Source of the DNA: Nitrosomonadales bacterium
Lineage (GTDB): Bacteria; Pseudomonadota; Gammaproteobacteria; Burkholderiales; Gallionellaceae
Length of the DNA: 64,000 bases
Assembly: GCA_016234685.1 (NCBI GenBank)
Contig: JACRAT010000003.1
Coordinates: 1 to 64,000, forward strand
Direction of reading: 5' to 3'
The translations under genes and the position numbers were made by a program. The notes beneath the pieces were generated by a model, which made no database searches, was not told the origin of the DNA, and saw nothing but the letters and a program-made list of their open reading frames with translations. The first letter of the stretch is position 1. The number at the start of each line of letters is the position of its first letter. Below, piece after piece: positions 12,629-58,951 of this stretch.

Positions 12629-14626
12629 ATGACACACGCCGACTTCCTCGATCTTTCTCCTTTGGCTTCTGCGCACGGCACGGTGCGCCTGCCCGGCTCC
12701 AAGAGCATCTCCAATCGCGTGTTGCTGCTAGCGGCGCTGGCGGAGGGCGTGACCGATGTGCGTGATCTGCTGAAGTCAGACGATACTGACCGGATGCTGG
12801 AAGGCTTGGCGACGCTGGGCGTGCAGATCGAATCCCTTGGCGACAACGCTCTTCGACCTAGCTCTGGGCAGGCCTACCGTGTTCATGGCTGCGGAGGCAA
12901 CTTTCCGGTCAAAGAAGCCAAGCTGTTCCTTGGTAACGCTGGCACGGCGTTCCGCCCGCTGACGGCGGCGTTGGCTCTGGCTGGCGGCAATTACGAACTG
13001 TCCGGTGTGCCTCGTATGCACGAGCGGCCCATCGGCGACTTGGTGGATGCGCTGCGCCAGTTGGGCGCGGACATCGAATATCAGGGGAATGAAGGGTTTC
13101 CGCCGTTGCGCATCAAGCCTCCCTCACCCCCATCCCCGCTCCTAGGGGGAAAGGGGAGAGGGCAGGTGCGCGGCGATGTGTCCAGCCAGTTCTTGACGGG
13201 GTTGCTGATGGCTTTGCCGCTGACTGGGCGCACGGTGACAGTGGAAGTGGTGGGCGATCTGATCTCCAAGCCTTACATCGAGATCACGCTGGCGATGATG
13301 GCTCGGTTTGGTGTACGCGTAGAACGGCAGGATTGGCAGCGCTTCGTAGTGTCCGGCGGCCAGCATTACCAGTCGCCGGGTACGATCTTCGTCGAGGGTG
13401 ATGCCTCCTCAGCTTCGTATTTCCTCGCCGCAGGCGCGATAGGTGGCGGCCCGGTGCGCGTCGAAGGTGTGGGCTGCGACAGTGTGCAAGGTGACGTGCG
13501 TTTTGTCGAAGCACTGGCACTGATGGGCGCGCGCATCGAGATGGGGCCGAACTGGATGGCGGCACGCGCGCCGGAATCCGGCAAGCTGACCGCCATCGAC
13601 CTCGATTGCAACCACATCCCCGATGCGGCGATGACGCTGGCGGTGGCGGCGCTGTTCGCCGACGGCACGACCACGCTACGCAACATCGCCAGCTGGCGCG
13701 TCAAGGAGACCGACCGCATCGCCGCTATGGCGACCGAGCTGCGCAAGCTGGGGGCCACGGTGGAGGAGGGCGCGGACTACATCCGCATCACTCCCTCCGC
13801 GATCAGCTACCCGCCGCAAGCTACCAGCTCCGGCATTGATACCTACGACGATCACCGCATGGCGATGTGTTTCTCGCTGGCCGCTTTTGGCGGTGCGGTG
13901 CGTATCAATGAGCCTAAATGCGTGGCGAAGACCTTTCCTGAATACTTTGAGACATTCTCGCAAGTAACTAAACCTATTGAGGTAATTTCCATAGATGGCC
14001 CATCCGCTTCCGGTAAGGGGACGGTGGCGCAACGCGTGGCGCTGGCGCTGGGTTTTCATTATCTGGACAGTGGTGCATTGTATCGCTTGCTGGCATTGGC
14101 GGCGATGCGACGCGGTATCGCGCTCGATGCAGAGGCATGTTTGGCCGAGTTGGCAGGGCAGGTGGACATTCGTTTCGTAGGGGCGGGCATCTGGCTGGAC
14201 GGCGCACAGGTTGGCGATGAGTTGCGCACGGAAGAGAGTGGCGCAGCCGCCTCGAAGATCGCCGCGCTGCCTGCGGTGCGGGCCGCGTTGTTGGACAAGC
14301 AACGTGCTTTCCGCTGTGCGCCAGGGCTGGTGTCGGACGGGCGCGATATGGGCTCAGTGGTGTTCCCGGATTCGGTGCTGAAGGTGTTTCTCACCGCGAG
14401 CGCGGAAGCGCGTGCCGAACGCCGCTATAAGCAGTTGATAGAGAAAGGGATGGGTGCTAATATCGCGGCCCTTTTGCAAGATATACGCGCCCGTGACGAG
14501 CGAGACAGTCAGCGTAGCGTAGCTCCCCTGCAACAGACAACGGACGCAAGTTTGCTGGATACCACGGCTCTGAACATCGAGCAGGCGGTAGAAGAAGTAC
14601 TGGCACGCTATCGTGCGTTGAAGTAG
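12629..14626 (+). CDS. aroA-cmk: Fused EPSP synthase / cytidylate kinase (AroA-Cmk)
   Basis: A single 665-residue frame. Residues 1-445 are 3-phosphoshikimate 1-carboxyvinyltransferase ([69 protein letters not shown]). About 450-665 are cytidylate kinase with its P-loop [18 protein letters not shown] and [12 protein letters not shown]. The joint [25 protein letters not shown] has no stop or start codon. Such bifunctional proteins are known in betaproteobacteria. A palindromic repeat is inserted in frame in the AroA part (about residues 165-180). It links chorismate synthesis to CMP/dCMP phosphorylation just ahead of rpsA. Confidence 0.96.
13121..13168. repeat. G/C-rich palindromic repeat in frame inside aroA
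   Basis: The stretch CCCTCACCCCCATCCCC then AGGGGGAAAGGGGAGAGGG is an imperfect inverted repeat related to the copies in mod (19188) and alaS (57412). It encodes about 16 residues ([14 protein letters not shown]) between IKPP and [10 protein letters not shown]. Other AroA proteins have a short unrelated loop there. Confidence 0.82.
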
Positions 14627-18998: not shown

Positions 18999-20996
18999 AT
19001 GGCTGATTTGCTATCCCAACTTGAACACCTGAACGAGCAGCAACTGCGACGTTTGCTGGTGGAGCACCTCACCCGCCAAAAGCTCGGGCTGTATTGGGAG
19101 GCGAACGCCATCGAACGCGATGCCGCGCTGAATGCCGATGTCGTGTTGCCGAGGTTGGTGGAGGAGTGGAGTTGTTCGCCGAGTGTTCCCTCACCCCAGC
19201 CCTCTCCCGACGGGAGAGGGAGTCAACTCCCTTCCCCCTCCGGGGGAAGGGCTGGGGATGAGGGCAAGCACCCTCTCCCCCCGGGAGAGGGCTGGGGTGA
19301 GGGTGATTTTGTTTACCGCAACCTCATCATCGAAGGCGACAACTACGATTCCCTGCGCCTGCTGCGCGCCACCCATGCCGGAAAAATCCGCGTCATCTAC
19401 ATCGACCCGCCGTACAACACCGGCAACAAGGACTGGGTCTACAACGACCATTACGTCAATGCTTCCGACCGCTGGCGGCATTCGCAGTGGCTGGAGTTTT
19501 TGTATCGCCGCCTCACGCTGGCGCGCGACCTGCTCACGCCGGACGGCGTGATTCTGGTGTCCATCAACGACGAAAACCGCGCGCGGTTGGAGATGCTGAT
19601 GGACGAGGTGTTTCCGGGGATGCGGTTGGGCACGATCACTTGGCGCACACGCCAAGGCTCAAATGCCGACCAGCAATGTTTTCTTTCTGTCGATCACGAA
19701 CATGTGTTGGTGTATGGCAATGAAGGGTTCAGTTTCAATGGCTTTGAAAAAAGCTATGAAATGTATGGCAATGCCGACAGCGATCCGCGAGGCGATTGGC
19801 GGACGAGTAATTTAACGCTCGGCTTTTCCTACAAGGAACGTCCGAATCTGTATTACCCGCTGCAAGATCCGGCAACTGGGGTTGTTTATCCGCCGAACCC
19901 GGATCGTATTTGGGTGTATGCCTCGCGTGATCGTTTGAAAGAAGGGCAAACAGTTCAGACCAAAACGATGGAAGAATTCATCGACCCGGGTCAGATTATT
20001 TTCCCTAAAGATCAGCGCGTCGAAACCTGGAACACGATGGACGAACTGCTCGCTGCGATTGATCGTGGTGATGTTCCCAAGAGTGGCAAGTCGCCAACAC
20101 TGCGCCGCGAATTACCCAATCTGGAATTTTGGTTGGGTCGTCCGGTGGGATTTGGTCGACCGCAGTTCAAGCGCTACAAGGCGGATTTGCGCAATCAAAC
20201 CCAGCCATTATCGAGTTGGATTGTGCCGACTTTCGAGGACGGTAATTACGAAGCGGAAAATAGTTTTGTGTCGAGCACTAACCAAGAAGGCGCACGGGTT
20301 GTCGCGGAGATTTTCGGCGACCGCGCTTTCAACTATGCCAAGCCGCTTTCGCTCATCAAGAACCTGCTCTCTCAAGCCACTCAGCCCAACGACATCGTGC
20401 TCGATTTCTTCGCCGGTTTCGGCACCACCGGACAGGCCGTGTTGGAGCTGAATGCCGAAGATGCTTCGACAGGCTCAGCACAGGTAGGCCAGCGCCGTTT
20501 CATCCTGTGCTCCAGCACCGAGGCCAACAGCAAAGAGCCGGACAAAAATCTGTGCCGCGACGTGTGCGCGGAACGGATGCGCCGCGTGATCAGCGGCTAC
20601 GGCGGCAAGCCGGGTTACACGCCGGAGCAGGGCGGCGAGTTCGCTTATCTGCAATTGGACAAGGTGGACGCCGCCGATGCGCATTTCGAGATCGATGCGG
20701 CGCACGCCTTTCAACTGCTGGCGCTGAAGCGGCTGAGCGTGGTGCGCGCCGCAACGGCGGGCGCGGTGCAGCGCCTCGGGCGGGTGGAGGATTGCGAGTT
20801 GCTGGTGTGCAACGAGGTCAATGCCGAGACGATAGCCACGCTCGCCGCCTGGCCGCAACAGCACGGCGCGGCGAGGCTGGCAATTTATTCCACCCGTCCT
20901 CAAACCTTGAGCGAACAGCTCGCCGCGCGCGGCGTGGAAGCGAATTGCTACAGCTTGATGGATGCGTTGCTGAGCGGGCAGCGGGGTGCGGCATGA
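18999..20996 (+). CDS. mod: Type III-like adenine-specific DNA methyltransferase (Mod)
   Basis: Beta-group N6-adenine or N4-cytosine methyltransferase of 665 residues. The catalytic DPPY motif is at residues 136-139 (IYIDPPYNTGNKDWVYNDHY). The SAM-binding FAGFGTTGQAVLEL is near 470, the order typical of Type III Mod proteins. The N-terminal part (HLTRQKLGLYWEANAIERDAAL) also fits the family. Residues about 63-102 (Pro/Ser/Gly-rich) are encoded by a palindromic repeat cluster, and ASTGSAQVG near 490 by a second repeat. The middle region probably holds target recognition. It begins 2 bases after pyrF and overlaps yhcG by 4. A full-length Res partner is missing. Confidence 0.9.
   Translation: MADLLSQLEHLNEQQLRRLLVEHLTRQKLGLYWEANAIERDAALNADVVLPRLVEEWSCSPSVPSPQPSPDGRGSQLPSPSGGRAGDEGKHPLPPGEGWGEGDFVYRNLIIEGDNYDSLRLLRATHAGKIRVIYIDPPYNTGNKDWVYNDHYVNASDRWRHSQWLEFLYRRLTLARDLLTPDGVILVSINDENRARLEMLMDEVFPGMRLGTITWRTRQGSNADQQCFLSVDHEHVLVYGNEGFSFNGFEKSYEMYGNADSDPRGDWRTSNLTLGFSYKERPNLYYPLQDPATGVVYPPNPDRIWVYASRDRLKEGQTVQTKTMEEFIDPGQIIFPKDQRVETWNTMDELLAAIDRGDVPKSGKSPTLRRELPNLEFWLGRPVGFGRPQFKRYKADLRNQTQPLSSWIVPTFEDGNYEAENSFVSSTNQEGARVVAEIFGDRAFNYAKPLSLIKNLLSQATQPNDIVLDFFAGFGTTGQAVLELNAEDASTGSAQVGQRRFILCSSTEANSKEPDKNLCRDVCAERMRRVISGYGGKPGYTPEQGGEFAYLQLDKVDAADAHFEIDAAHAFQLLALKRLSVVRAATAGAVQRLGRVEDCELLVCNEVNAETIATLAAWPQQHGAARLAIYSTRPQTLSEQLAARGVEANCYSLMDALLSGQRGAA
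19188..19303. repeat. Composite palindromic repeat in frame inside mod
   Basis: The ends are exact 21-bp complements (CCCTCACCCCAGCCCTCTCC+C from 19188; the mirror ends at 19303 with GGGGTGAGGG). Three hairpins lie inside: around 19200-19220 (CTCTCCC GAC GGGAGAG), 19229-19251 (CTTCCCCC TC GGGGGAAG) and 19271-19291 (CCCTCTCCC / GGGAGAGGG). It is translated as a Pro/Ser/Gly-rich insert ending in GEGWGEG, between the N-terminal helices and FVYRNLIIEGDN. Confidence 0.93.
20463..20486. repeat. Second dispersed-repeat remnant in frame inside mod
   Basis: CTTCGACAGGCTCAGCACAGG resembles half of a widespread bacterial palindromic repeat (CTTCGACAGGCTCAG). It encodes ASTGSAQVG between LNAED and QRRFILCSS, where related methyltransferases pass directly to the last strand. 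Confidence 0.6.
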
Positions 20997-41588: not shown

Positions 41589-43112
41589 ATGACGATCATA
41601 CGCCAGCAGGATTTCATCGATAGCGTCGCCGATGCTTTGCAATTCATCTCTTATTACCATCCGCAGGATTACATCCATGCGCTGGCCGAGGCCTATCGAA
41701 TCGAGGAATCGCCAGCCGCCCGCGATGCGATGGCGCAGATCCTGACGAATTCGCGGATGTGCGCGCTGGGGCATCGCCCTGTCTGCCAAGATACCGGCAT
41801 CGTGGTGGCTTTTGTGCGGGTGGGAATGGCGGCGCGTTGGGATGCGAATCTGAGCATCGTGGAGATGGTGAACGCCGGGGTGCATAAGGCTTACACCGAC
41901 CATGACAATCCCTTGCGTGCCTCCATCGTCAGCGATCCGGCGGGCAAGCGCAAGAACACTGGCGACAACACGCCTGCCGTGGTGCATGTGGAGCTAGTTC
42001 CCGGCAATATCGTCGAGGTTCGCATCGCGGCCAAGGGCGGCGGTTCGGAGAACAAGGCGCGATTCGCCATGCTGGAGCCTTCGGATGATGTGGTCGAGTG
42101 GGTGGTGAATCAGTTGCCGGAGATGGGGGCGGGCTGGTGTCCGCCGGGCATGTTGGGCATCGGTATCGGCGGTACGGCGGAAAAGGCGATGCTGCTGGCG
42201 AAGGAGGCGCTGATGCAGCCCATCGACATGGCCAAACTCAAGGCGCGCGGTACGCGTACCCGGGCGGAGGAGTTGCGCATCGAGATCCACGACAAGGTGA
42301 ACGCGCTCGGCATCGGCGCGCAAGGCTTGGGTGGGTTGACTACAGTGCTGGATGTGAAGGTGCTCGACTATCCGACCCATGCTGCCTCCAAGCCGGTAGC
42401 CATCATTCCCAATTGTGCGGCGACGCGCCATACTCATTTCGAGTTGGATGGCAGCGGCGTGGCGCAATTCACGCCGCCGGACATCGCCAGTTATCCAGAT
42501 GTGCATTGGCATCCGGCGGAGAATGCGCGCCGGGTGAATCTAGAAGGCTTGACTCGTGCGGACATCGAGCAATGGCAACCCGGCGAGACGATCCTGCTCT
42601 CGGGTAAGTTGCTGACTGGGCGCGATGCGGCGCACAAGCGGCTGGCCGATATGTTGGCCCGAGGCGAGAAACTGCCGTCCGGCGTGGATTTTAATGGCCG
42701 ATTCATTTACTATGTCGGGCCGGTTGATCCGGTGCGCGATGAAGTCGTAGGGCCGGCAGGCCCGACCACCGGGACGCGCATGGATAGATTCACCGAGATG
42801 ATGCTGGCGCAGACCGGGCTGATCGGCATGGTCGGCAAGGCCGAGCGAGGGCCGGTCGCCATCGAGGCGATCAAGAAGCATGGAGCGGTCTACCTGATTG
42901 CGGTGGGCGGTGCGGCTTACTTGGTGGCGAAAGCCATACGCAGTGCGAAAGTGATTGCCTTTGCTGATCTTGGCATGGAAGCGATCTACGAATTCGAAGT
43001 GGAAAACATGCCGGTGACGGTGGCGGTGGATGCGCGGGGACGCTCGGTCCATGACATCGGTCCGGCAGAGTGGAAGAAGCGGATCGGGATCATCCCGATC
43101 AGAGCGGTTTAG
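41589..43112 (+). CDS. fumA: Fumarate hydratase, class I (iron-sulfur)
   Basis: Oxygen-sensitive fumarase of 507 residues with a [4Fe-4S] cluster. Likely cluster cysteines are C66 (GHRPVCQDTG), C184 (GAGWCPPGMLG) and C275 (IIPNCAATRH). The N-terminal alpha-type domain (about 1-290) is followed by the beta-type domain (VNLEGLTRADIEQWQPGETILLSGKLLTGRDAAHKRL, GPTTGTRMDRFTEMML). Both halves are in one chain. The symbol is by family; the gene could also be called fumB. It implies a TCA cycle under low oxygen or iron-rich conditions. Confidence 0.93.
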   Translation: MTIIRQQDFIDSVADALQFISYYHPQDYIHALAEAYRIEESPAARDAMAQILTNSRMCALGHRPVCQDTGIVVAFVRVGMAARWDANLSIVEMVNAGVHKAYTDHDNPLRASIVSDPAGKRKNTGDNTPAVVHVELVPGNIVEVRIAAKGGGSENKARFAMLEPSDDVVEWVVNQLPEMGAGWCPPGMLGIGIGGTAEKAMLLAKEALMQPIDMAKLKARGTRTRAEELRIEIHDKVNALGIGAQGLGGLTTVLDVKVLDYPTHAASKPVAIIPNCAATRHTHFELDGSGVAQFTPPDIASYPDVHWHPAENARRVNLEGLTRADIEQWQPGETILLSGKLLTGRDAAHKRLADMLARGEKLPSGVDFNGRFIYYVGPVDPVRDEVVGPAGPTTGTRMDRFTEMMLAQTGLIGMVGKAERGPVAIEAIKKHGAVYLIAVGGAAYLVAKAIRSAKVIAFADLGMEAIYEFEVENMPVTVAVDARGRSVHDIGPAEWKKRIGIIPIRAV

Positions 43113-43155
43113 ATTTTGGTCGGCGCGCGGAGGTCGAGCGCGACGATAAACAGTT

Positions 43156-43253
43156 TGGCGGGTCTCCCCGCATTGCAACTTGGTGAATCTGGTCAGGTCC
43201 GGAAGGAAGCAGCCACAGCCAGTCGTTGCAAGTGCCGGGGGTAAGGCTCGCCT
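43156..43253 (+). ncRNA. ffs: Signal recognition particle RNA (4.5S, small bacterial type)
   Basis: The conserved SRP domain IV core is present: GGTCAGGTCCGGAAGGAAGC followed by AGCCACAGCC. The flanking sequences GGCGGGTCTCCCCGCATTGCAA and TTGCAAGTGCCGGGGGTAAG, GGCTCGCC pair to form the long hairpin. Ends are approximate. It binds Ffh for co-translational membrane targeting. In many proteobacteria it lies directly before dnaX; here one gene intervenes. Confidence 0.95.
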
Positions 43254-43273
43254 CCTTATGTGATGGGTGTGTG

Positions 43274-43807
43274 ATGAAAAAGCTCGGTGTGTTGCTGATC
43301 GGTTCCTTGCTGAGTTTCCCTGTTTTGGCGGTGGACGGTGTTTCTGTCGAATATGGCAATGGCGACTACACTGACGCGGCGCGTGTTGGCTTGGTGTGGG
43401 ATTGGAATAAGAGCTGGTTCGGTGAAGGCCGCGACTGGCATGTCACGGGTTTCTGGGAAGCTGCCGCCGGGCAGTGGAAGGGGCGCAGCAGCGTCGGCAA
43501 CAACCAGACCGTCACCGATATCGGCTTCACCCCGGTGTTCCGTCTTGAGCAGAAAACGCCTTCCGCGCTAGCACCTTATGTCGAGGCCGCTGTTGGCGTG
43601 CATTTCATCTCGCCTACCTTCATCTATGCCAACCGCAAGTTCGGTAGCAGCTTCCAATTCGGCGACTCTGTCGGTTTTGGCGTGCGGCTGGGCGACAAGC
43701 GGCAATATGACCTCGGCTATCGCTACCAGCATCTGTCCAATGGCAGCATCAAGCAGCCGAATCAGGGCATCAACCTGAACGAGTTTCGATTTACCTATCG
43801 GTTCTGA
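43274..43807 (+). CDS. pagL: Lipid A 3-O-deacylase, PagL-like
   Basis: Outer-membrane beta-barrel of 177 residues with a signal peptide (MKKLGVLLIGSLLSFPVLA). The C-terminal YRYQHLSNGSIKQPNQGINL carries the PagL His-x-Ser-Asn motif (H153, S155, N156); E170 could complete a triad. The chain ends in an aromatic residue (TYRF), as barrel proteins do. PagL removes a 3-O acyl chain from lipid A. The ATG 43274 starts the signal peptide. It is 21 bases after ffs and ends 2 bases before dnaX. Confidence 0.86.
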   Translation: MKKLGVLLIGSLLSFPVLAVDGVSVEYGNGDYTDAARVGLVWDWNKSWFGEGRDWHVTGFWEAAAGQWKGRSSVGNNQTVTDIGFTPVFRLEQKTPSALAPYVEAAVGVHFISPTFIYANRKFGSSFQFGDSVGFGVRLGDKRQYDLGYRYQHLSNGSIKQPNQGINLNEFRFTYRF

Positions 43808-56260: not shown

Positions 56261-58951
56261 ATGAAAAGCAGCGAAATCCGTCAGAAATTCCTCGACTTCT
56301 TTGCCTCCAAAGGCCACACCATCGTCGCCTCCAGTTCGCTGGTACCGCACGACGACCCGACCCTGCTGTTCACCAACGCGGGCATGAACCAGTTCAAGGA
56401 CGTGTTCCTAGGCTTTGACAAGCGCCTCTACACCCGCGCCACGTCGTCGCAAAAATGTGTGCGTGCCGGCGGCAAGCACAACGATCTGGAGAACGTCGGC
56501 TACACCGCGCGCCACCACACTTTCTTCGAGATGCTGGGCAACTTCAGCTTCGGCGACTACTTCAAACGCGAAGCCATCCAGTACGCATGGGAGCTGCTGA
56601 CCGAAGTCTACAAGCTGCCCAAGGATAAGCTCTACGTCACCGTCTACGCTGAGGACGACGAGGCCTACGACATCTGGACCAGAGAGATGGGCTTGGGCGC
56701 TGACCGCGTGATCCGCATCGGCGACAACAAGGGCGCGCGCTACGCCTCCGACAACTTCTGGATGATGGGCGACACCGGCCCCTGCGGCCCCTGCACCGAG
56801 ATCTTCTACGACCACGGTGCGCACATCCCCGGCGGCCTGCCCGGCACGCCGGAAGAAGACGGCGACCGCTACATCGAGATCTGGAACAACGTGTTCATGC
56901 AGTTCAACCGCGACGAAGCCGGCGTGATGCACCCGCTGCCCAAGCCCTCGGTGGATACCGGCATGGGCTTGGAGCGCATCTCGGCGGTGTTGCAACACGT
57001 CCACGCCAACTACGAGATCGACTTGTTCCAAGCGCTGATCACCGCCGCTGCGCGCGAGACTTCCTGCACCGATCTGGATTCGCCTTCGCTCAAAGTGCTG
57101 GCCGATCACATCCGCGCCTGCTCCTTCCTCATCGCCGACGGCATCATCCCCGGCAACGAAGGTCGCGGCTACGTGCTGCGCCGCATCATCCGCCGCGCCA
57201 TCCGCCACGGCTACAAACTGGGCGCACGCGATGCCTTCTTCTACAAGCTGGTGCCGGATTTGGTGGAGCAGATGGGTTCTGCCTATCCTGATTTAGCCGC
57301 TGCGCAAGTGCGCGTGATGGAGATTTTGAAGCAGGAAGAAGAACGGTTCTTCGCTACCATCGAGAATGGTATGGCTATCCTCGAAGCTGAGTTGGTGGCT
57401 TTGGGGGCAGCCCCTCACCCTCAGTCCCTCTCCCGAGGGGAGAGGGAGGCAGAACCCTCTCCCGCCGGGAGAGGGCAGGGTGAGGGAGTCGTGTTCAACG
57501 GCGAGGTGGCCTTCAAACTCCACGACACCTACGGCTTCCCGCTCGACCTCACTGCCGACGTATGCCGCGAGCGCGGTGTGACGGTGGACGATGCCGCCTT
57601 CAACGCCGCGATGGCGCGTCAGAAGGAGCAGGCGCGCGCCGCTGGCAAGTTCAAGATGGCGACCAATCTGGAATATGATGGCCCGGCCACCACTTTTCAC
57701 GGCTACGACACGCTGGAGCACAAGGGCAACATCCTCGCGCTGTACAAGGACGGCGCGGCGATGAACGAGTTGAATGAGGGCGAGATGGGCGTGGTGGTGC
57801 TGGACGACACCCCGTTCTACGCCGAATCTGGCGGTCAGGTCGGCGACCTAGGCGAGCTGCGCAGCGTACACGGCATCTTCGCGGTGGAAGACACGCAGAA
57901 GATACAGGCCACGGTGTTCGGCCACCATGGCGTGGTCAAGACCGGCAAGCTCACCGTCGGCAACGGCGTGAACGCCCGCGTGGACATGCAGGCGCGCGCC
58001 GCCACCGAGCGCAACCACTCGGTGACGCATTTGATGCACAAGGCCTTGCGCGAGGTGCTGGGCGGGCATGTGCAGCAGAAGGGTTCGCAGGTTGACCCGG
58101 ACAAGACGCGCTTCGACTTCGTTCACACTCAGCCGGTGACCGATGCTGAGATTCGCAAAGTTGAGTCCATCGTCAACGCCGAGATACTGACTAATGCCGC
58201 CACCGATGCCAGCGTGATGGGCATCGAGGCCGCGCAGAAGACCGGCGCGATGATGCTGTTCGGCGAGAAATACGGCGACGAAGTGCGCGTGCTGTCCATC
58301 GGCAGCTCCAAGGAACTGTGCGGCGGCACCCATGTGAAGCGCACCGGCGACATCGGCCTGTTCAAGATCGTGGCCGAGAGCGGCGTGGCGGCTGGCGTGC
58401 GCCGCATCGAAGCGGTGACCGGCGCGGGCGCGCTGGCGCTGGTGCAGCAGCAGGAAGACCAGTTGCAACAGGTTGCCGCTGCGGTGAAAGCGCAACCGTC
58501 CGAAGCCGCCGCGCGCGTCGTCCAGATTCTGGATAACGTGAAGTCGCTGGAGAAGGAACTGGCTGCACTGAAATCCAAACTGGCTTCCGCTCAAGGCGAC
58601 GAGCTGGTTTCTCAGGCGCAAGACATCAACGGCGTGAAGGTGCTTGCGGCCAAGCTCGACGGTGCGGATGTCGCCACCCTGCGCGAGACCTTGGATAAGC
58701 TGAAAGACAAGCTGCACACGGCGGTTATCCTGCTGGCGGCGGTCAACGACGGCAAAGTCAGCCTGATCGCCGGTGTCACCGCCGATACGACCTCTAAGGT
58801 GAAAGCGGGCGAGCTGGTCAACTTCGTCGCCACCCAAGTCGGCGGCAAGGGCGGCGGTCGCCCTGACATGGCGCAAGCAGGCGGCACGCAGCCGGAGCAT
58901 CTGGCGGTGGCGCTGGCTTCCGTCGCGGCTTGGGCAGCGGCGAAACTGTGA
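56261..58951 (+). CDS. alaS: Alanine-tRNA ligase
   Basis: Class II synthetase of 896 residues. The aminoacylation core has [43 protein letters not shown] and [18 protein letters not shown]. The editing domain has [24 protein letters not shown] and [18 protein letters not shown] (zinc/editing ligands). The C-terminal DHHA1 domain has [16 protein letters not shown] 25-residue repeat-derived insert sits at about residues 385-409, between the helical tRNA-binding region and [22 protein letters not shown]. All catalytic motifs remain intact. Confidence 0.97.
57412..57486. repeat. Palindromic repeat in frame inside alaS
   Basis: 75 bases, a multiple of three. CCCTCACCCT at the left and CAGGGTGAGGG at the right are complements. 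Inside are CCCTCTCCC/GGGGAGAGGG and CCCTCTCCC GCC GGGAGAGGG hairpins. It is translated as [21 protein letters not shown] and a few more residues. Other AlaS proteins lack this segment. Confidence 0.93.

Follow-up and report, generated by a model that had tools for sequence, protein, structure and literature searches.

Composite Palindrome in the mod Gene

The window, i.e., the whole stretch of 64,000 nucleotides analyzed here from a Nitrosomonadales bacterium of the Gallionellaceae, contains a gene for a DNA methyltransferase whose reading frame runs through a long composite palindrome. The following features are recognized at this locus.

18999..20996, plus strand: Type III-like Mod (N6/N4 DNA methyltransferase) gene, host of the palindrome (open reading frame; PF01555 N6_N4_Mtase, E=1.4e-17; fold matches)
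19188..19303, plus strand: composite palindrome (116 bp) made up of three TM units and coding for 39 residues in the frame of mod (sequence; pLDDT; orthologs)
19188..19220, minus strand: left TM unit in reverse orientation, CCCTCACCCC-AG-CCCTCTCCC-GAC-GGGAGAGGG (sequence; layout as in TMECO type B, PMC4666352 Table 1)
19229..19264, plus strand: middle TM variant unit, CCCTTCCCCC-TCC-GGGGGAAGGG-CT-GGGGATGAGGG (sequence; blastn copies elsewhere in the genome)
19271..19303, plus strand: right TM unit, CCCTCTCCC-CCC-GGGAGAGGG-CT-GGGGTGAGGG (sequence; blastn copies elsewhere in the genome)

The start of mod at 18999 was assigned by reading the sequence. The best solved folds for a model of the protein are a DNA methyltransferase (6k0w), EcoP15I Mod (4zcf), and Mbo45V Mod (7dsu), in agreement with the Type III-like host proposed when the window had been inspected as letters only (the sequence-only reading). 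This reading had also described a 116-base composite palindrome with exact 21-base arms and three inner hairpins, which stays open in the frame of mod and adds about 39 residues just before the motif YRNLIIEGDN, and all of this was borne out. The outer 21-base arms of 19188-19303 are exact reverse complements, because the two outer TM units face each other, the inner hairpins are located at 19200-19220, 19229-19251, and 19271-19291, and the insert corresponds to the 39 Mod residues 64-102, ending three residues ahead of YRNLIIEGDN. The block as RNA has a fold energy of -95.1 kcal/mol. Mod residues 63-103, nearly coinciding with the insert, show pLDDT values below 50 in a model that was built from 8 sequences and has a mean pLDDT of 65.6 and other low stretches, which is weak evidence that the 39 residues form a predicted disordered linker segment.

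Each TM unit consists of a pyrimidine arm, a short loop, a complementary purine arm, and, after two bases, a purine-rich third block ending in GAGGG. This three-block layout with a 2-base gap before the purine third block is present in all three units when compared with Table 1 of PMC4666352 (Holder et al., 2015), and the block at 19188-19303 is, as judged from its letters, a three-unit cluster of the known palindromic repeat TM/PIT/BoxC. The likeness to TM/TMECO lies in the layout CCCTCTCCC-loop-GGGAGAGGG-NN-GGGGTGAGGG. The accessible text of that paper describes TM/TMECO, earlier known as PIT and BoxC, as a G/C-rich intrastrand triplex motif that forms a triplex in vitro, and gives its distances to ORFs in Escherichia coli; it reports no transposase or integrase remnants near the E. 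coli motifs, its main text does not contain the words "intragenic" or "in-frame" (word search), and "endonuclease" had a count of zero for this paper in a literature listing. A known RNA family was dismissed as the identity of the block, the 33 Rfam matches (E up to 1) including none at the gathering score.

Dispersal of the Repeat and In-Frame Copies

The genome-wide search with the 21-base arm that the sequence-only reading had proposed revealed many further copies in the source genome (2.35 Mb, 43 contigs, 87.7% complete). BLAST of the block against its own genome gave 81 matches on both strands at about 40 separate places, the arm pattern with up to 3 mismatches matched 61 times (13 exact) versus 32 times for the backwards pattern, and the exact gapped arm pattern matched 19 times versus 0 for the backwards control. 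Because of the BLAST matches and this excess over the backwards control, the repetition of the block is not a matter of chance.

We sampled 48 genome stretches, most of them around copies and two around Y1_Tnp genes, and scored 49 arm clusters from the window and 36 of these stretches; a cluster had to contain at least 3 arm seeds and span at least 20 bp, and some BLAST places, e.g., C9:30347 and C26:160450, are outside the scored set. Codon scoring replaced a plain inspection of open frames, because long antisense ORFs are misleading. One coding frame common to both sides was found at 23 of the 49 clusters, all of which are open in that frame. Five clusters show the same coding strand with different frames on the two sides and may represent frame-breaking copies or gene borders; 14 have a coding signal on one side and 7 on neither. 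No stop codon closing a shared frame was found among the 49 scored clusters. Together with three one-sided cases in an open matching frame, 26 of 49 copies are located within genes in the coding frame. Their first CCC arm falls into phases 0, 1, and 2 in 11, 7, and 6 of the 26 cases, and a GGG arm comes first in 2 more. With regard to the frame bias to be checked according to the sequence-only reading, the open frame was found in 23/23 shared-frame copies, but no single reading phase is used. The same two-sided test was passed by 53% of 2,908 random places of the window as compared to 47% of the clusters, so there is no clear avoidance of genes by the copies; different frames on the same strand occurred at 4% of the 2,908 random places versus 10% of the clusters. 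The pattern of phases and open frames fits a loss of most frame-breaking insertions better than aimed insertion. Besides the block in mod, two in-frame copies are located in the window itself.

13121..13162, plus strand: TM copy in frame inside aroA-cmk (spanned by a PF00275 match; present in congener G001, not in G002)
57412..57486, plus strand: TM pair in frame inside alaS (spanned by a PF01411 match; absent in G001 and G002)

The host proteins identified by Pfam include EPSP synthase, AlaRS, aconitase, MetH, a LysA-type decarboxylase, a Mur ligase, LeuRS (at two sites), an AcrB-type pump, an HrpA-type helicase, a methylase with a PUA-like domain, EarP, MetRS, MutS, RecQ, and several DNA methylases; one scanned host (L035) gave no Pfam match. 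A reverse transcriptase ORF (RVT_1) elsewhere in the genome carries a TM unit near each end (L067, G000 C40, about 41631-43287).

Presence and Absence of the Insert in Related Genomes

Downstream segments of 14 sites were searched in the two congeners G001 and G002, 13 of which have orthologs in both, mod being the exception. The insert is missing in at least one congener at all 13 ortholog sites; it is common to G001 in aroA, hrpA, both leuS sites, rlmI, mutS, and metG, and to G002 in lysA. In-frame insertion in genes and absence from orthologs, as looked for in protein-coding palindromes, are thus both observed. No target-site duplication, a feature looked for in MITEs, was seen by eye at 10 aligned sites, between relatives so diverged that a short one could be hidden. 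An assembly artefact was rejected, since TM insertions are shared with congeners at several sites.

The mod linker itself was compared in orthologs from other genera, omitting a fragment without the insert (L291) and a sequence that was too distant (L295). The linker is empty in L289 and in the more distant L292-L294, carries one TM unit in L290, and two in L288. The ortholog L287 (genome G015) contains a GTAGG-type REP pair and one TM unit, translated at the same linker. Since orthologs show 0, 1, or 2 units or a different GTAGG-type repeat, the Mod linker is, as far as these alignments indicate, a place of repeat gain and loss. The sequence-only reading had considered the insertion as recent or actively maintained, and a recent change is consistent with the differing number of units (0, 1, or 2) that orthologs have at this site. 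Palindromes occurring at this linker also in Mod orthologs of other genera might be taken to indicate that the insert is retained by selection for a function, either in regulation or switching of Mod or as a useful peptide. However, the number and kind of units vary among these orthologs, with some having none and one a different repeat, the repeat hosts are unrelated genes, the Mod segment is predicted to be disordered, and all three reading phases are used among the in-gene copies, and we regard a selected function as barely credible.

Y1_Tnp Genes Are Not Linked to the Repeat

The sequence-only reading had further proposed to look for an associated transposase, for example of the REP-associated type. 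Two Y1_Tnp genes were indeed found in the source genome, and in-gene REPs have been published (PMC3733652, accessible text), which would be in line with a REP-associated tyrosine transposase (RAYT) spreading these palindromes. However, neither gene is flanked by a TM repeat in this 87.7% complete assembly, a TM-type hairpin is located within 400 bp at only 1 of 31 Y1_Tnp loci and on both sides at none, and the GTAG/CGTC tag is missing from the unit, leaving this explanation very improbable. The expectation of a linked REP-type transposase therefore failed: Y1_Tnp is present but unlinked to TM, and DUF559 genes are flanked instead; the gene with matching ends codes for an endonuclease (the transposase search covered Y1_Tnp). 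One Y1_Tnp gene lies between GTAGGATGCGC repeats, likely a separate REP system (L077, G000 C15:56937-57278).

DUF559 Genes Are Bracketed by Palindromes

Each of the three DUF559 genes found in the source genome has palindromes on either side, which are of the TM type for two of the genes and of the CCCCCTTT class for the third. In the MetRS of this genome, a DUF559 domain lies beside TM units, the left palindrome being imperfect and missed by the strict test. The third DUF559 gene (L081, G000 C16:4412-4735) has a second palindrome family on both sides, GCCCCCTTTAGCC(A/C)AAGGGGGC.

DUF559 is present in 43 of 60 genomes of the family. Among 70 family loci, a fetched subset of the DUF559 matches from which the duplicates L109 and L110 were dropped, a polypyrimidine/polypurine hairpin occurs within 250 bp of DUF559 at 69 and on both sides at 52, and hairpin density is 20-fold higher near DUF559 (172 per 34,672 bp) than further out (44 per 182,010 bp). 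Across bacteria, such a hairpin lies within 250 bp at 78 of 80 DUF559 loci and on both sides at 62, with a 38-fold difference in density (196 per 39,101 bp versus 19 per 145,505 bp). These 80 loci are the best of at least 567 confirmed matches to a profile of the family DUF559, by which remote DUF559 proteins are under-sampled; ten named phyla are represented (Pseudomonadota by 58 of the 80 loci, with 2 loci unplaced), and many loci are from metagenome bins, whose labels may be wrong. Both sets represent 149 distinct places, as L094 and L208 are the same DUF559. The sole control family is Y1_Tnp, with its 1 in 31 loci obtained at the wider distance of 400 bp. The hairpin test failed at one family locus (L146) and two cross-bacteria loci, L190, which appears decayed, and L202. 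The latter, from Legionella anisa, shows by eye TM arms with a long loop inside an apparent long inverted repeat on both sides. Among plasmid-collection records, a hairpin lies beside DUF559 in 8 of 10 (10 fetched of 45), and the two misses are cyanobacterial and have other palindromes on both sides. When a single DUF559 protein was scanned against viral_contigs, no relative was confirmed. The control panel of the DUF559 search returned no match for E. coli, despite its ycjD being annotated as DUF559.

The association also holds when viewed from the repeat. Exact TM matches lie within 700 bp of DUF559 in 6 of 133 cases versus 0.19 expected (133 TM in 20 genomes, with rounded genome sizes), and DUF559 is present in 27 of 29 genomes with exact TM versus 9 of 19 without (Fisher p 0.0006, uncorrected for kinship). 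Exact TM occurs without a DUF559 being found in G005 and G031, and DUF559 in genomes free of exact TM can have other palindrome classes. Palindrome class is shown to track the DUF559 lineage, as judged from 10 changes on the DUF559 tree versus a mean of 30.7 after shuffling, with 0 of 200 shuffles as low (close kin unallowed for), on a poorly resolved tree of about 106 columns. The third block of the innermost palindromes of both sets points inward in 161 cases and outward in 31, with 69 undecided, and inner pairs readable on both sides are inverted in 55 cases and direct in 14.

Our preferred reading, to which we assign a probability of about 0.7, is that the block in mod consists of non-autonomous mobile palindromes of the TM/BoxC type, located in a Mod linker as a probably harmless disordered loop, and that DUF559 spreads such palindromes. 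This role of DUF559 is inferred by analogy with RAYT transposases, which are thought to spread REPs. At 18/70 family and 18/80 cross-bacteria loci, palindromes are not found on both sides, which counts against it, as do the lack of a visible target-site duplication, the loci failing the hairpin test, the genomes with only one of exact TM and DUF559, the poor resolution of the tree, and the single control family.

Whole Units Within Host Genes

Units consisting of palindrome, DUF559, and palindrome are themselves found in frame within other genes. The 23 loci comprise seven in HrpA, five in MetRS, three each in MmeI-type proteins and HsdM, two in ValRS-type class I synthetases, and one each in an Eco57I-type methylase, MetH, and a class III aminotransferase. 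Seventeen of the 23 hosts were scanned with Pfam and the others (L106, L108, L112-L114, and L116) were named from reading their sequences; for the host at L196, Pfam indicates a class I synthetase and sequence reading ValRS. The HrpA units form one clade (support 97), with L120 located at another HrpA position. The MetRS and HsdM units require three tree changes each, which suggests repeated arrivals of units at the same linker of these proteins. No intein domain was detected by Pfam in the 17 scanned hosts, and the insert therefore seems to stay in the host protein. Two loci of genome G083 have a segment of 495 bp in common (93% identity), which starts within the left palindrome and extends past the right one; beyond this segment BLAST finds only short repeat matches. 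With 14 DUF559 matches, some of them fragments, the same genome (L088, L132, L138, L144, L145, L146) ranks first among the 60 genomes.

Conversely, the palindromes may be mere targets, with DUF559 units inserting into or recombining at resident palindromes that were spread by another route. There are about 40 TM places but only 3 DUF559 genes in the source genome, separate DUF559 lineages occur in the same host linkers (3 tree changes each for MetRS and HsdM), as though attracted by a TM already present, and some IS elements insert into REPs, as indicated by the title of a reference. Yet the palindromes lie on both sides, are mostly inverted, and belong to classes tracking the DUF559 tree, and the shared 495-bp unit of G083 extends over the right palindrome and the greater part of the left one. 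We consider resident targets a rather unlikely explanation.

Kinship of the DUF559 Proteins

A DUF559 profile search matched the endonuclease-like protein 3hrl (1.6e-38) and the "mobile intron protein" 3r3p (E=4e-4), the latter indicating kinship with homing enzymes; 16 sequences at E-values of 0.04-0.32, all toxin B chains, were taken as chance. We take 3r3p to be I-Bth0305I. An alignment of 32 sequences has 15 invariant columns, which presumably reflect a PD-(D/E)XK-like pattern. A DUF559 gene has been placed in the EDxHD homing endonuclease family (PMC9403480), a DUF559 has been called Vsr-like (PMC12907096), and a transposase and DUF559 have been described for recombination hotspots of Legionella (PMC12308824), each according to the accessible part of the source. 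No report of a link between DUF559 and repeats was found among the titles and abstract starts listed, a coverage outside of which most subscription papers fall.

The Vsr-like designation and the profile match to 3r3p would also suit a nuclease of the host or of an element that removes or processes palindromes, similar to Vsr-like repair acting on folded DNA, and TM motifs are associated with instability in E. coli according to the accessible text of PMC4666352. The link would then reflect a function on the repeats and not their spread. This leaves unexplained both the bracketing of the gene by repeats and the whole units inside unrelated genes, and we judge it to be distinctly improbable.

Proposed Mechanism and Relation to Known Systems

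If DUF559 spreads the palindromes, as we prefer, the Vsr-like nuclease, whose activity is predicted, would recognize the folded palindrome and nick either the palindrome or its target. Repair might then copy the whole unit as an autonomous element or the palindromes alone as non-autonomous ones, and selection would remove copies disrupting a reading frame or a fold. In-frame copies in linkers would survive because each strand of the palindrome has one to three frames without stops, in most cases two or three. On balance, we are inclined to regard the palindrome-DUF559-palindrome unit as a new class of bacterial mobile elements of about 0.4-0.5 kb, which would encode a Vsr-like endonuclease as their only protein, end in polypyrimidine/polypurine palindromes, spawn non-autonomous TM/BoxC repeats, and be translated in frame and unspliced within essential genes.

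The TM repeat itself and the idea of translated palindromes are already known, whereas DUF559 genes bracketed by such palindromes and the translation of entire endonuclease units in essential genes were not encountered in the part of the literature that was searched. Rickettsia palindromic elements (RPE) and intragenic GTAG/CGTC REPs are likewise palindromic repeats that are translated within unrelated genes, including those for DNA repair and tRNA synthetases (PMC3733652). They differ from the repeats described here in sequence (set apart from RPE by description), and the accessible text of that paper makes no link to DUF559. The REP-RAYT systems (TnpA-REP, REPtron; PMC8266576, accessible part) resemble the DUF559 units in having palindromes around a nuclease-type gene with which these co-evolve, the dispersed copies being thought to be non-autonomous. 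However, they employ an HUH (Y1) enzyme instead of a Vsr-like one and carry a GTAG/CGTC tag instead of a polypyrimidine/polypurine arm with a third block. EDxHD/Vsr-like homing endonucleases share the profile match to 3r3p and the occurrence of several units at one host-gene linker, but DUF559 is bracketed by palindromes and the 17 scanned host proteins are devoid of an intein domain.

Should DUF559 prove to be the mobilizer, this would define a new class of mobile element. TM/BoxC is known in many bacteria without a mobilizer, for which the bracketing, co-varying endonuclease is a direct candidate. Such units could also explain the low-complexity inserts of the PSP or GEG type in bacterial proteins, provide DUF559 with a biological role, and represent a route from mobile DNA to new protein segments, even in tRNA synthetases and DNA repair enzymes.

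The E. coli ycjD Locus

The pairing of DUF559 and TM is also observed in E. coli, where ycjD, a DUF559 gene flanked by sapF and fabI, is followed by a TM motif about 170-200 bp downstream. In two fetched strains without the ycjD region, efflux genes follow sapF and there is no clean empty site. Of 5,426 E. coli genomes, 3,361 have a single place that covers at least 80% of the 1,150-bp query. The locus differs from those of the source repeat in having one clear TM downstream and another kind of palindrome upstream. This upstream element is a perfect inverted repeat, TCACCTCATTCTGACA (L297, L307).
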